Program-made: the position numbers and the translations under genes
In this document: one piece after another, positions 9,627 through 55,018 of the stretch
How the letters are laid out: the number at the start of each line of letters is the position of its first letter
Numbering within the stretch: position 1 is the stretch's first letter
Notes under the pieces: model-generated
What the model was told of the DNA's origin: nothing
Databases searched by the model: none
Seen by the model: only the letters and a program-made list of their open reading frames with translations
Origin: Rhodanobacter sp. 7MK24
GTDB taxonomy: Bacteria; Pseudomonadota; Gammaproteobacteria; Xanthomonadales; Rhodanobacteraceae
NCBI RefSeq assembly: GCF_014842995.1
Contig: NZ_JACYXL010000006.1
Span: 1-64,000, forward strand
Direction of reading: 5' to 3'
DNA: 64,000 nucleotides

Positions 9627-10328
9627 TCACATGGCCGGCTCATCGGGCAAGGCGAGCGCCTTGCGCAGCTCCGTGCGCGCAGCCGCATAGTCGGCCTGCC
9701 AGGAAGGATCGTCCAGCAGCCGCTCGCCGAGCACGGTGCCGGCAAGCCGGCCGGCCTCCACGTCGCTGGGGAAATGCGCGCCCATCACGATACGGTGCCG
9801 GGCGTAGAGATCCGCACGGGCGAAGATCGCGGCGCGCTTCTCCGGCAGCATATTGGCCAGCAGTACCGCCGCGGTGTAGCCGAACGTGGCGTGCCCACTG
9901 GGGTAACTCCAGTCGTCGGGCTTTTCCGCCGCGAGCGGCTGCACCTGCGCGGATACCGCCGCCGGACGCGGATGACGCCAGTAATTCTTGGCCTGCTTCA
10001 CTTCGGCCTTGTCCAGCGCGGCCACGCGTTTGAAAAAGGCGGCCGTGCTGGGCAGCCGCTCGGCTTGCAGGTTCACGCCCAGTGCGTCCGCAAAGCGGAA
10101 CACGGATCGCTCCGCGTCCGCCTTGGCCGCCGCCGCTTCGGCGGCGGTTCGTGCGTGTTGCGTGGCCAGCACCACATCCAGGTCCTGCCGTGCTTCGGGC
10201 GAATCTGTTGCCGGTGGCGGCGGCAACAGGCGGGTCAGTTCGACCGGCAGGGCGGCAGCGTTGCCGTCGGCGGCCAGTACGTTCTGGCCGGCCAGCAGCA
10301 GCACCACCAGCAACAGCGCGTGCTTCAT
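9627..10328 (-). CDS. Secreted class A acid phosphatase (PAP2 superfamily)
   Basis: A 233-residue protein with signal peptide (NVLAA). All three parts of the PAP2 phosphatase signature are present in order: KNYWRHPRP, YPSGHAT and ARHRIVMGAHFPSDVEAG. The order and the signal peptide fit the PhoN/PhoC class A non-specific acid phosphatases, which release phosphate from organic esters in the periplasm. Its ATG overlaps the TGA of the upstream TonB receptor (ATGA, 10326-10330), so the two are translationally coupled and probably handle the same substrate, such as a phosphate ester imported by the receptor. Confidence 0.88.
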   Translation of the reverse strand: MKHALLLVVLLLAGQNVLAADGNAAALPVELTRLLPPPPATDSPEARQDLDVVLATQHARTAAEAAAAKADAERSVFRFADALGVNLQAERLPSTAAFFKRVAALDKAEVKQAKNYWRHPRPAAVSAQVQPLAAEKPDDWSYPSGHATFGYTAAVLLANMLPEKRAAIFARADLYARHRIVMGAHFPSDVEAGRLAGTVLGERLLDDPSWQADYAAARTELRKALALPDEPAM

Positions 10329-12580
10329 CAGAACAGGTCCGCGGAGAACGTGACGTTGTAGTTGCGCGACGGGATGGTGAAGTACAGCGGCGTGCCATCG
10401 GCCACGGTGGTGCCGGCCAGCGCATTGATGTTGGTGTTGTTGAACAGGTTGTTGATCTGGAAGCCGATCTTGATGTCCTTCACGTCCGTCCGGTGCAGGT
10501 CGAAGCGGTAGCTGGCGGCGAAGTTGGTCACCGCGTAGCCGCCGATCGGCGTGTCATCGTTGGCGTTGGCGGTGTAGTAGGTCTTGCCGACGAACTTGTC
10601 CATCAGCGACGCATACACCGGGCCGTTGCGGTAGATCAGGCCCAGCGCGGCGGTCTTGTGCGGCGTGTTCGGATTCCAGGTGTTGCTCTCGGTCTGGATC
10701 GCGCGGTTGAGCGAGCCGTTGGCGTAGATGCTGAAGCCGCCGCCGATCATGTAGGTGCCTTCCAGCTCGAGGCCGGTGTAGTGCACGCCGCCGCCGTTGT
10801 AGAAGTAGGTGACGCCGCCGATCTTCTGGCTCTGGATGAAGTTGTTGAAATTGATCTTGTAGACGTCGCCGGACAGCGTCAGGTCGTCGCTGTTCCAGGT
10901 GGTGCCGACCTGCCAGTTCGTGGTTTTTTCAGGCTGGAGGCTGCCGTCGGAGATGGCCGGGTCGGCTACGTAGAGCAGGTTGAGGTTGGGTGCCAGGAAG
11001 CCCTTGGCCCACTGCGCATAAGCCGTCCAGTCCGAAGTGAATGAATAGTGGAAGGCCGCCGAGGGCAGCGTAGCGTTCCATTTCGCCGAATAATCCAGTG
11101 GCGTACCCGTCTTCTGGTTGTACTCGGCGTCGAGGTTGCGCTTGAAGTCGTCATACTTCAGGCCGCCCACCAGCCACGCGTTGTCGGTGATGTTCCACTG
11201 GTATTCGAGGAACGGCTGGAAGGTGGTCAGCGAATCGGTCATCACGCGGTCGACCGGGCTGTCGCTGCCCTTGGTCGGCGCGCCGGTGGTGTTGATGGCC
11301 GGTACGTCCAGCGTGTCGTCGAACTCGTATTCCCAGCGCAGATTGTCCTGGTGGTCGAACCAGGCGCCGGTGCGGATTTCGCCCGGGCCCAGTTCCTTGC
11401 TCACGCGGAGAATGTCGCCGAACGAGCGGTACCAGTTGCGCATGTGCTGGCCGGGCACGTCGTCCGGATCGAGACAGTTGTTGCCCTTCTTGTCGCAGAA
11501 CGTGCCGTTCGGCGTCTCACCGTTCGGGTCCAGGCCGTTGAAGCCGAAGTGGTTGTAAGCGTAGGTGTAAGCCTTGTTGTCGACCGTCCAGCCGTCGAAC
11601 TCGGAGTGCAGGCCGATGTAGGCCATGTACGTGGTGATCTGGTCATTGTTGTAGCGGTAGTACGACTGGCTGGTCGGATCGTTGTTCAGGGCATAGTTCG
11701 GGCCGTACTCGGCGATCTGCGCCTTGCTGGCGCCGAATGGCACGTACTGGTTGATCTTGTTCCACATGCCGCCGAAGGTCAGCGTGGTGTTGTCGCCCAG
11801 CGGTTGCACGATCTTGGCGAAGATGTTCTGGCGGCGCTGGCCGGCGTAGGTGAGGTAGCCGTCCGAGCTGCCGTTCTGCACGTTGATCACGGCGGCGGTG
11901 CCGCTGTCGTTGAGCTTGCCGGTGTCGATGCGCGCACCTTCCACTGCCGTCGCCCAGCTGCCGTAGCTGAGGTAGGGGTGCAGGTTGAAGTCGGCCGAGG
12001 GATCGATGGATTCCACCGACACGGTGCCGCCGAAGGTGGCGTCGCCCAGCGTGCTGGCGGTGCCCGGGCCGCGGTCCACCGTGACGCTGCTGGTGTCCTG
12101 GTTGGTGAAGTACGACGTGGAGTGGTGCGTGAAGTCGTTCGAGTCGCCCCACGGAATGCCGTCGAAGGTGACGTTGTACTGGCCGTCCTGGAAACCGCGG
12201 ATGCTGGCGACCGCCGTTTCCATCAGGCCCGAGCCGTTCGGTGCGATGGTGTAGGTGCTGGGCGAGATCGCGATGGCGTCGGTGTAGTCGCCGGTCGGAG
12301 CAATGTTTTCCTGCAGGAACAGGCTGCCGATGATCGACTGCGGCTCGACCGCCACCAAGGAGCCCTGCGTCGGCGCGGTACTGGTCGCGTTGACGGTGCT
12401 GGCATTCACCTGCACCTTCGCCAGCGTCTTGGGGTTGTTCGCCGTGGCTCCGATGGCGCTTGCATCCGCCGTCGGCGCGATGGGCGTGGTGTTCGTGTCA
12501 TCCGCACGAGCCGGCGAGGCGATGGCGGCGGCGATGGCAAGCGCGAGCACGGCGCGCAGGACGGGCATGGATTGGGTCAT
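10328..12580 (-). CDS. TonB-dependent receptor coupled to acid phosphatase
   Basis: A 750-residue receptor from the ATG at 12580; another ATG is 12 bases inside. The signal peptide ends SPARA. A possible TonB box sits in TLAKVQVNAST. The plug contains VASIRGFQDGQYNVTFDGIP and VTVDRGPGTASTLGDATFGG, with VSVESIDPSADF at the plug end. The barrel finishes VTFSADLF, the usual aromatic end. The coupled phosphatase gene suggests uptake of a phosphorylated compound. Four direct repeats at 12708-12748, about 130-170 bases before the start, are likely its control site. Confidence 0.82.
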   Translation of the reverse strand: MTQSMPVLRAVLALAIAAAIASPARADDTNTTPIAPTADASAIGATANNPKTLAKVQVNASTVNATSTAPTQGSLVAVEPQSIIGSLFLQENIAPTGDYTDAIAISPSTYTIAPNGSGLMETAVASIRGFQDGQYNVTFDGIPWGDSNDFTHHSTSYFTNQDTSSVTVDRGPGTASTLGDATFGGTVSVESIDPSADFNLHPYLSYGSWATAVEGARIDTGKLNDSGTAAVINVQNGSSDGYLTYAGQRRQNIFAKIVQPLGDNTTLTFGGMWNKINQYVPFGASKAQIAEYGPNYALNNDPTSQSYYRYNNDQITTYMAYIGLHSEFDGWTVDNKAYTYAYNHFGFNGLDPNGETPNGTFCDKKGNNCLDPDDVPGQHMRNWYRSFGDILRVSKELGPGEIRTGAWFDHQDNLRWEYEFDDTLDVPAINTTGAPTKGSDSPVDRVMTDSLTTFQPFLEYQWNITDNAWLVGGLKYDDFKRNLDAEYNQKTGTPLDYSAKWNATLPSAAFHYSFTSDWTAYAQWAKGFLAPNLNLLYVADPAISDGSLQPEKTTNWQVGTTWNSDDLTLSGDVYKINFNNFIQSQKIGGVTYFYNGGGVHYTGLELEGTYMIGGGFSIYANGSLNRAIQTESNTWNPNTPHKTAALGLIYRNGPVYASLMDKFVGKTYYTANANDDTPIGGYAVTNFAASYRFDLHRTDVKDIKIGFQINNLFNNTNINALAGTTVADGTPLYFTIPSRNYNVTFSADLF

Positions 12581-12707
12581 GGGTGGGCACCGGAGAGGAA
12601 GGGGGTGTAGACAGCGGCGCGGATGCTGGCCCTTGCACATGACATTTGTGCTGCAAAAGGAAGATGCGATTTGCGCGGAAAATTGCGGCTCCCTGGCGCA
12701 ATTTGCT

Positions 12708-12748
12708 TCTCTTAGTGTTCTCTTAGGCCTCTCTTAGATTTCTCTTAG
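12708..12748. promoter_or_regulatory. Four identical 8-bp direct repeats at exact 11-bp period
   Basis: TCTCTTAG occurs at 12708, 12719, 12730 and 12741 with variable 3-base spacers. Direct repeats one helical turn apart are the hallmark of OmpR/PhoB-family response regulator sites. The CTTAG core recalls the PmrA/BasR pattern (CTTAA-type half-sites, 11-bp period) more than the canonical Pho box. The array lies about 130-170 bases upstream of the minus-strand receptor-phosphatase operon. The repeats are seen directly; the regulator is inferred. Confidence 0.75.
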
Positions 12749-12754
12749 TTCTCG

Positions 12755-13510
12755 ATGCGGGAGAGCGGATCATTCGTCGACGACAGAACGGTTTCACCTG
12801 TCTTCCAGTGCGGTGACCGGGTCATTTCTCTTTTGTGTATCCATGTATCCAAAAGAGAAGCGGTCGAGAGAAAAGAGTGCTCGATGCGGCGTTTGGCCGC
12901 CTTCCTGTCCGACCAAAAGGACGCCGCCTTTCCCCCGCGCCCGCTGCGCGGTCTGATCGTCCCCGCCTCGTCAAGGCCAGAAGCCCGGGAAGCGGCGCTT
13001 CAAGTGCGCAAAAGCAGCGTCGACATCCAGAACCAGGACAGGGCCGATGCGGCACGAGGTACCGCGGGGCTTCGAACCTCGGTTTCCAGATGCGGCGCGG
13101 TATGGCCTCGCGTCTATCGCGCGGGCAGGAATGGCTCCCAAACCCCCAGACCCAGCTTGCTTGCAGTTCCGCCGCATCGAACCAGGCAGTTTCTCTGGTT
13201 CCTTGCTCATGACCTCGGGCATCCAGTCTTCCGCTCTTCGGGGCGATTTCGCCGTTCGCCGTCGTTCCTGCGGCGGCATGGCCAGCAAAGAGAAGAACCC
13301 GCACGCCTGCAGGCGACCGAAGCCGCCTTGTTCCTTGCAAGCAAATCCAGATGCCCAGCAAGCAAACCAAAACCCGCAAAGCGTAGTCCCACTCGCAAGT
13401 CTGCAATTCCGCCCCGCAGGGGAAGAAGCGAGGTCCCCGCTGGTCAGCTTTCTCTCGATACCTGCGCGGCTCCAAAGCCCCGAATCGCCAAATTCCATTT
13501 GGACGTATAG
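12755..13510. repeat. Long gene-free stretch with a hairpin and dispersed-repeat character
   Basis: About 750 bases between the divergent receptor and gltB promoters. Open frames exist on both strands but their products are Arg/Pro/Ser-rich and unlike any family, so I do not call a gene. At 12827-12858 a hairpin has 9-bp arms TCTCTTTTG and CAAAAGAGA around a 14-base loop. Such elements, reading as CTTTTGG...CCAAAAG, are common repeated intergenic sequences in Xanthomonadales. The rest looks like the same kind of repeated filler; compare 56433-56917. Confidence 0.45.
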
Positions 13511-53449: not shown

Positions 53450-55018
53450 ATGAGTGAACCGCAGGGCATCTCCGGCCGGGTGGCGGTCGTGCTGTTTGCC
53501 CTGCTCACCGCGTGTGCACTGGGCGCGTTGCGCGTGCCCTTGCGCCTGCCGCCCGCGCCCGTGCTGCTGGTGCCGGCGATGCCGGACGGTTCGGAAGTCC
53601 AGCTGTGGCTGAGCACCCAGGACCGCAGGCTGCGTCTGGTACGGCAACCGGATATCCCGTTGACCGTGTCGGCCGCGCGCGCGGAACCGCCTGCAGCCGA
53701 CATCAATATCGATACCAGCCGGACCTTCCAGGCCATCACGGGTTTCGGTGCGGCGATGACGGAGTCGTCGGCGTGGCTGCTGGACCATGCGATGGACGAC
53801 GACCAGCGCTTCGCCTTCCTGGAAGAGATGTTCGGGCCGCCGCCTGGCCTCAATCTCGACATGACGCGCGTGAGCATCGGCGCCTCGGACTTTTCACTCA
53901 AGCCCTACACGCTGGACGACATGCCCGAGGGCCAGACCGACCCCGGACTGACGCACTTCAACCTTGCCGCCAGCCCGCGTGACGTGGTGCCAGCGCTGCG
54001 CGAAATGATGGAGATCAATCCGCAACTGCACATCATCGCCGCACCGTGGAGTGCGCCGGCATGGATGAAGACTATCGACGCGCTGAACGGCGGCTCGCTG
54101 CAGCCGCAGTACGAGGCTGCCTATGCGCGGTACCTGGTGAAGTACATCGATGCCATGCAGGCGCAGGGTGTCCCGATCTGGGCGTTGACCGTGCAGAACG
54201 AGCCGGGTTTCGAACCACTGACCTACCCGGGCATGTTGCTGCCCGGCGACGCCCGCGCACGCATCATCGGGCAACACCTCGGCCCCGCGCTGGCGAGCCG
54301 CGATCCGCGGCCGCTGATCCTCGACTGGGACCACAACTGGGATGCACCGGAGCAGCCGCTGACCGTGCTGGCTGACGCGGATGCGCGGCGCTACGTCGAC
54401 GGCGTCGCCTGGCACTGCTACGCGGGTAGCGTGAGCGAACAGAGTCGCGTGCATAAGTCGTATCCGGACAAGGACGCGTACCTGACCGAGTGCTCGGGTG
54501 GCGACTGGGCCTCGGCAAAGAACGGCGAGCTGCTGCTCTTCGCGCGCGACGTGCTGCTGCTGAGCCTGCGCAACTGGGCGCGCGGCGCGGTGTACTGGAA
54601 CATCGCGCTGGACGAGAAGCATGGACCGCATTCCGGCGGCTGCATCGATTGCAAGGGCATGGTGACGATCGACTCCAAAACCGGCGAGATCCAGCGCAAC
54701 GACGAGTACTACGCCTTCGCCCACTACAGCCGTTTTGTACTGCCCGGTGCCGTGCGCGTGTGGTCGGACGACACCGGTCCGGACATCCATAACGTGGCGT
54801 TCCGCAATACCGACGATGGCTCCATCGTGCTGGTGGTGACCAACAGTTTGAACAAGCCGCGCCATGTCAGCGTGGTGCAGGACCGGTTGTCGTTCGGATA
54901 CACGATGCCGCCCGAAAGCGTGGCGACGTTTACCTGGAACCCGGGCCTTGCCGCGCACTCGTGGGAGCGTCGCGTACGCGATCTGTTCAACAAGGCGTTG
55001 GGCGTCGTCACTCCGTGA
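53450..55018 (+). CDS. GH30-family glycosidase (beta-1,6-glucanase/glucosylceramidase type)
   Basis: A 522-residue protein. An N-terminal hydrophobic helix (VVLFALLTACALGAL) serves as signal or anchor. The GH30 barrel begins FQAITGFGAAMTESSAWLL. The acid/base Glu is in WALTVQNEPGFEPLTYPGM and the nucleophile Glu in YLTECSGGDW. The C-terminal beta domain ends FTWNP, as usual. Likely substrates are beta-1,6-linked glucans or glucosides. The ATG at 53450 is preferred over the GTG at 53441. It pairs with the TonB receptor upstream and the phosphodiesterase downstream (gap 55 bases). Confidence 0.88.
   Translation: MSEPQGISGRVAVVLFALLTACALGALRVPLRLPPAPVLLVPAMPDGSEVQLWLSTQDRRLRLVRQPDIPLTVSAARAEPPAADINIDTSRTFQAITGFGAAMTESSAWLLDHAMDDDQRFAFLEEMFGPPPGLNLDMTRVSIGASDFSLKPYTLDDMPEGQTDPGLTHFNLAASPRDVVPALREMMEINPQLHIIAAPWSAPAWMKTIDALNGGSLQPQYEAAYARYLVKYIDAMQAQGVPIWALTVQNEPGFEPLTYPGMLLPGDARARIIGQHLGPALASRDPRPLILDWDHNWDAPEQPLTVLADADARRYVDGVAWHCYAGSVSEQSRVHKSYPDKDAYLTECSGGDWASAKNGELLLFARDVLLLSLRNWARGAVYWNIALDEKHGPHSGGCIDCKGMVTIDSKTGEIQRNDEYYAFAHYSRFVLPGAVRVWSDDTGPDIHNVAFRNTDDGSIVLVVTNSLNKPRHVSVVQDRLSFGYTMPPESVATFTWNPGLAAHSWERRVRDLFNKALGVVTP

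Follow-up and report, generated by a model that had tools for sequence, protein, structure and literature searches.

What reads four perfect repeats, set 11 bp apart, in front of an operon for a TonB-dependent receptor and an acid phosphatase? The repeats lie in the window, a 64,000-nucleotide stretch of the Rhodanobacter sp. 7MK24 genome. The original prediction saw in them the geometry of OmpR/PhoB-family sites. The question was addressed by comparing the locus with orthologous operons, related genomes, and known regulatory systems.

The array and its operon

The sequence TCTCTTAG starts at positions 12708, 12719, 12730, and 12741 with zero mismatches and an exact 11-bp period, which confirms the four perfect repeats that were predicted. 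The spacers between the copies are tgt, gcc, and att. The window reads TCTCTTAGtgtTCTCTTAGgccTCTCTTAGattTCTCTTAG from 12708 to 12748, and the CTTAG pentamers of the plus strand occupy 12711-12715, 12722-12726, 12733-12737, and 12744-12748. Shuffling of the window gave an expectation of 0.02 for TCTCTTAG-N3-TCTCTTAG with up to three mismatches versus three occurrences found, and 0.09 for CTTA-N7-CTTA versus three found, all of them within the array. The array is genuine and did not arise by chance. Direct repeats at a step of about 11 bp mark tandem operators of the OmpR/PhoB family, and the array has this arrangement.

The operon in front of which the array stands is encoded on the minus strand. 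On that strand, the array consists of four copies of CTAAGAGA located 128 bp 5′ of the probable ATG of the receptor gene (10328-12580, minus strand, 750 aa), whose product matches Pfam TonB_dep_Rec_b-barrel (4.5e-42) and Plug (5.1e-08). The gene that follows (9627-10328, minus strand, 233 aa) encodes a PAP2-family class A acid phosphatase-like protein (Pfam PAP2, 6.9e-16), and its start overlaps the receptor gene stop. The predicted receptor and acid phosphatase operon is supported. The nearest NCBIfam model of the PAP2 protein is PhoC at 60 bits, which is under the model cut-off, and K-x6-RP, PSGH, and xR-x5-H-x3-D, the motifs of class A phosphatases, were recognized by eye. The flanking gene on the other side of the array is gltB on the plus strand. 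The operon (9627-12580; orthologous loci L061-L085) adjoins gltB here, as it does in several Rhodanobacter, and rarA in Dyella and some others. A separate element just upstream of the array, TCTCTTTTGTGTATCCATGTATCCAAAAGAGA at 12827-12857, has an inverted repeat, TCTCTTTT/AAAAGAGA, around two tandem copies of TGTATCCA.

Four half-sites are retained before the orthologous receptor gene in three congeners. An alignment across four congeners has 20 invariant columns out of 20 in the pentamers and only 7 out of 18 in the spacers. Because the pentamers are invariant and the spacers drift, the repeating unit is one CTAAG at each 11-bp step, and the feature at 12708-12748 (minus strand) is annotated as an array of four CTAAG half-sites on the basis of its repeats and its conservation upstream of the congeners' orthologous gene. 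This corrects the proposed core from TCTCTTAG to CTAAG; the 8-bp perfection is partly incidental. Of the 26 orthologous operons compared, which come from Dyella, Rhodanobacter, and related bacteria, 21 have an exact CTTAG-N6-CTTAG pair, three a pair with one mismatch, and two none; genus statements rest on the named contigs among these operons. Most of the exact pairs face the other way from the gene, reading CTTAG-N6-CTTAG, and the orientation of the array with respect to the gene is reversed between Dyella and the window's group. This reversal counts against the reading of the array as an operator for the candidate regulator described below (RR-Y), as does the absence of the array from two congeners that have the operon (L070 and L074). 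The array was not found before distant receptors from Burkholderiales and others.

Spacing and targets of CTTAG pairs across the family

The gaps between CTTAG pairs were tallied in 13 Dyella-type genomes. A gap of 6 occurs 51 times versus 1-11 times for each other gap; gaps of 2, 3, 4, 5, 7, 8, 9, 10, and 11 have 9, 4, 8, 6, 1, 5, 11, 8, and 11 cases, respectively. The 11-bp spacing is therefore enforced across the family, as the predicted OmpR/PhoB-type tandem geometry implied. Many gap-6 sites are orthologous, and the 53 sites examined in 22 genomes reduce to 35 non-redundant ones. Fifty of the 53 are intergenic according to a heuristic codon-position gene call. The genes downstream of the sites encode several types of TonB-dependent receptor, including a second receptor-acid phosphatase operon, YncE-like propellers, heptosyltransferase (GT9)/ArnT operons, a PAP2 protein, RND pump adaptors with their pumps, secreted proteins, and OmpR-family regulators.

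Genome by genome, exact pairs are no more numerous than those of a reversed control word, and one-mismatch triple-site counts across the family are similar for the reversed control and do not discriminate. Since the raw count is no larger than the control, the evidence consists of the gap excess, the intergenic placement, the conservation, and the coherence of the targets. The genome scan that the original prediction called for had a divided outcome. There is no exact CTTAG-N6-CTTAG in the whole genome of the window's strain besides the array, which counts against an RR-Y operator, but a large set of sites exists in the relatives and a degenerate copy precedes the RR-Y gene in this genome. CTTAGCT heptamers are tandemly repeated with a 7-bp period in genomes G163 (contig C33, 30919-30971) and G164 (contig C199, 85-110), and these are unrelated to the 11-bp array. 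Locus L190 on contig C19 of genome G054 is a compact cluster of PMT/ArnT-like, RND pump, YncE, GT9, PAP2, and two-component genes with CTTAG pairs, and is possibly an island for lipid A or envelope modification.

RR-Y as the candidate regulator

RR-Y is a PmrA/QseB-like response regulator of the OmpR family encoded in the genome of the window's strain (contig C5, approximately 53926-54588, minus strand) and followed by a QseC/PmrB-like sensor kinase. Its orthologs were found at no fewer than seven loci in at least six genomes, the window's own included, and the motif recurs in their promoters. In genome G164 (L192), RR-Y comes third, between a second receptor-PAP2 pair and the kinase gene, in an operon preceded by CTTAGCGCGGACTTAG, and L246 has the gene order receptor-PAP2-RR-Y after a CTAAG pair. 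In genomes G133, G163, and G164 (second copy), RR-Y immediately follows a CTTAG/CTAAG pair, and the loci with the motif directly before RR-Y are L031, L180, L218, and L282. A degenerate TAAG-N7-TAAG directly precedes RR-Y in G157 and in the window's genome; the copy in the latter is CTTAC-N6-CTTAA, and its degeneracy counts against RR-Y as the reader of the array. A scan of the 700 bp before each DNA-binding domain of all 35 OmpR-type winged-helix genes in the window's genome and G157 detected two CTTA-N7-CTTA sites, both at RR-Y. In the RR-Y promoters, about 10-11 nt separate the gene-nearest site from a −10-like hexamer downstream of it, a position expected of an activator of the OmpR family; the hexamer is weak in the window's genome.

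The best NCBIfam model for RR-Y is PmrA with 238.6 bits, followed by QseB with 200. The PmrA score is below the cut-off of 330, so RR-Y is not a certified PmrA. Its top PDB match is Klebsiella BasR/PmrA, and it is 48% identical to K. pneumoniae PmrA. RR-Y of the window's genome keeps PmrA residues N188, E191, V192, H195, R171, R198, and R210, and has Q for H193, G for T187, and R for K153. Positions 187, 188, 191, and 193 are more variable in the RR-Y of other species, and the substitution of H193 may have to do with the G of CTTAG. The kinase is nearest to QseC and PmrB but below both cut-offs (best model QseC, 221 bits versus 475).

The head-to-tail half-sites bound by K. pneumoniae PmrA are CTTAAT and CCTAAG, separated by 5 bp (PMC3973317), and CTAAG is therefore close to a known PmrA half-site. 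The array resembles the enterobacterial PmrA (BasR) box in its tandem head-to-tail half-sites at an 11-bp step and shares CTTA/TAAG with CTTAAT/CCTAAG. It differs in the G at the fifth base of both half-sites and in having up to four copies, and it does not match the PmrA box consensus YTTAAK-N5-YTTAAK, which has A at the fifth base. The systems are alike in that the candidate regulator is PmrA-like and ArnT-type and PAP2 genes are among the targets in this family, but here the target set extends to TonB-dependent receptors and acid phosphatases, and the kinase is closest to QseC. The predicted kinship of the core to PmrA-type sites is supported by inference, and PmrA is the top match of the best regulator candidate. 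QseB/QseC is similar in that QseB is the second-best family of RR-Y and QseC is the best model of the kinase; unlike that system, no quorum or flagellar genes were seen among the motif targets. In the openly searchable literature we found no report of a PmrA/QseB operator built from CTTAG direct repeats.

From these comparisons, we predict that the array is a multimeric operator for RR-Y, an assignment we regard as likely. Each CTAAG pentamer would be one half-site, and successive RR-Y monomers, spaced 11 bp apart, would line up head to tail along a single helix face. With one half-site per monomer in head-to-tail order, the four half-sites could hold two dimers, and phosphorylated RR-Y would occupy them as two head-to-tail dimers.

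A different OmpR-family regulator might bind the array instead. RR-X, with its own copy in the window's genome at C31:560639-561295, is an example, and in some species it is divergent from a heptosyltransferase/ArnT operon and has CTTAG pairs before it. Pairs or near-pairs precede RR-X in G054, G169, and G041, which tells against RR-Y as the reader of the array, and the RR-X neighborhood in G054 (PMT/ArnT-like, RND, YncE, GT9, and PAP2) holds the same classes as the motif targets. Against this, RR-X was not found at E≤1e-60 in 14 of the 22 genomes, most of them motif-bearing, which led us to reject it as the universal regulator. Most RR-X promoters in the window's genus have only one CTAAG, and PmrA His195 is Phe in RR-X. 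Binding by RR-X or another such regulator in place of RR-Y is an unlikely explanation; RR-X may be a second binder. The RR-X promoters of the window's genus (L194-L201, L206, and L207) share a conserved element that resembles GAATGTTTTGCTAAG and contains one CTAAG.

A Pho-box-like element in the operon promoter

Between the array and the receptor gene is a Pho-box-like element, TGCAGC-ACAAA-TGTCAT (12639-12655, minus strand), with TGTCA kept in orthologous promoters. Comparison of the promoters places a probable −10 hexamer, CAGCAT (12623-12628, minus strand), 10 nt after the element; the relatives have TACGGT, TAGGTT, or TAGCGT at this place. Almost every orthologous promoter has TGTTAY-N5-TGTCAT, 10 nt, and a −10-like hexamer downstream of the array. 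The second half-site and the spacing of a Pho box, which has a pair of TGTCAT-like half-sites at an 11-bp distance and 10 nt before the −10, are present in the relatives, and the first half-site of the window (TGCAGC) is weak. A sigma-70 consensus scan near the array found no promoter. P. aeruginosa PhoB recognizes a pair of (T)GTCAT boxes with 5 nt between them (PMC4513871), and because TGTTAY-N5-TGTCAT resembles these boxes, a predicted PhoB site likely occupies the −35 position, separate from the array. The array lies 43 bp from the element in most Dyella orthologs and 45-46 bp from it in the remaining CTTAG-type orthologs; in the window's group and in congeners L060 and L076, the distance is 55 bp.

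The acid phosphatase downstream and the Pho-box-like element in the same promoter would also fit an array bound by PhoB itself as an alternative Pho box, the operon being a plain member of the Pho regulon. Cyanobacterial SphR, too, uses CTTAACCT repeats with an 11-bp period (PMC1906773), and its Pho boxes are like the array in having CTTAA-rich 8-bp repeats with 3-bp linkers, often in three or more copies. SphR is a different regulator from a different phylum, however, and the pstS promoter of the window's genome has a TGTCAT-type sequence and no CTTAG pair, on which ground PhoB is rejected as the array binder. Many CTTAG targets also have no TGTCA boxes nearby, and the array and the TGTCAT element are separate conserved blocks at a fixed distance. 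The array was rejected as a Pho box: it consists of CTAAG without TGTCAT-type half-sites, which agrees with the prediction of a core unlike the Pho box and nearer to PmrA sites. We consider PhoB binding to the array very improbable, and phosphate control, if any, would act via the element at 12639-12655, not via the array. The least probable account, a functionless tandem repeat born of chance or slippage, could draw on the single such array in the genome and its absence from two congeners with the same operon, but the family-wide gap-6 excess opposes it, and a slippage or microsatellite origin is rejected because the spacers differ and drift while the pentamers stay, leaving it next to no credence.

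We return to RR-Y as the predicted reader of the array. Since the Pho-box-like element is the −35 region of the operon promoter, the receptor-phosphatase operon is probably controlled jointly by RR-Y and PhoB. Bound RR-Y would act from about 90-130 bp upstream on this promoter and would add a second signal to the phosphate control of the operon. Composite PhoB/TctD boxes in P. aeruginosa integrate two signals (PMC4513871) and are similar in combining a PhoB box and a site for a regulator of the PmrA/QseB/TctD group in one promoter at a defined distance. The TctD motif is at most 22 nt from the PhoB box there, whereas the array is 43-55 bp upstream here and has a different sequence. No PmrA-controlled receptor-phosphatase operon was found described in the openly searchable literature.

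The wider reading, which we favor by a small margin over doubt, is that a PmrA/QseB-like system of the Rhodanobacteraceae recognizes CTAAG-N6-CTAAG and has been rewired to a broad envelope and nutrient-uptake regulon with PhoB as a partner at receptor-phosphatase operons, and that the operator was expanded to four copies in phase within the window's group. The regulon would comprise several TonB-dependent receptors, secreted acid phosphatases, YncE propellers, LPS enzymes, and RND pumps. For the Rhodanobacteraceae, a family from acid soil, the openly searchable literature yielded no account of such a two-component system; the sequences now give it an outline in the form of an operator, a candidate regulator, and a set of likely targets. 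PmrA-type control is known for lipid A changes and the polymyxin response. These results suggest that it may also extend, together with PhoB, to how phosphorylated or metal-bound nutrients are released and taken up.
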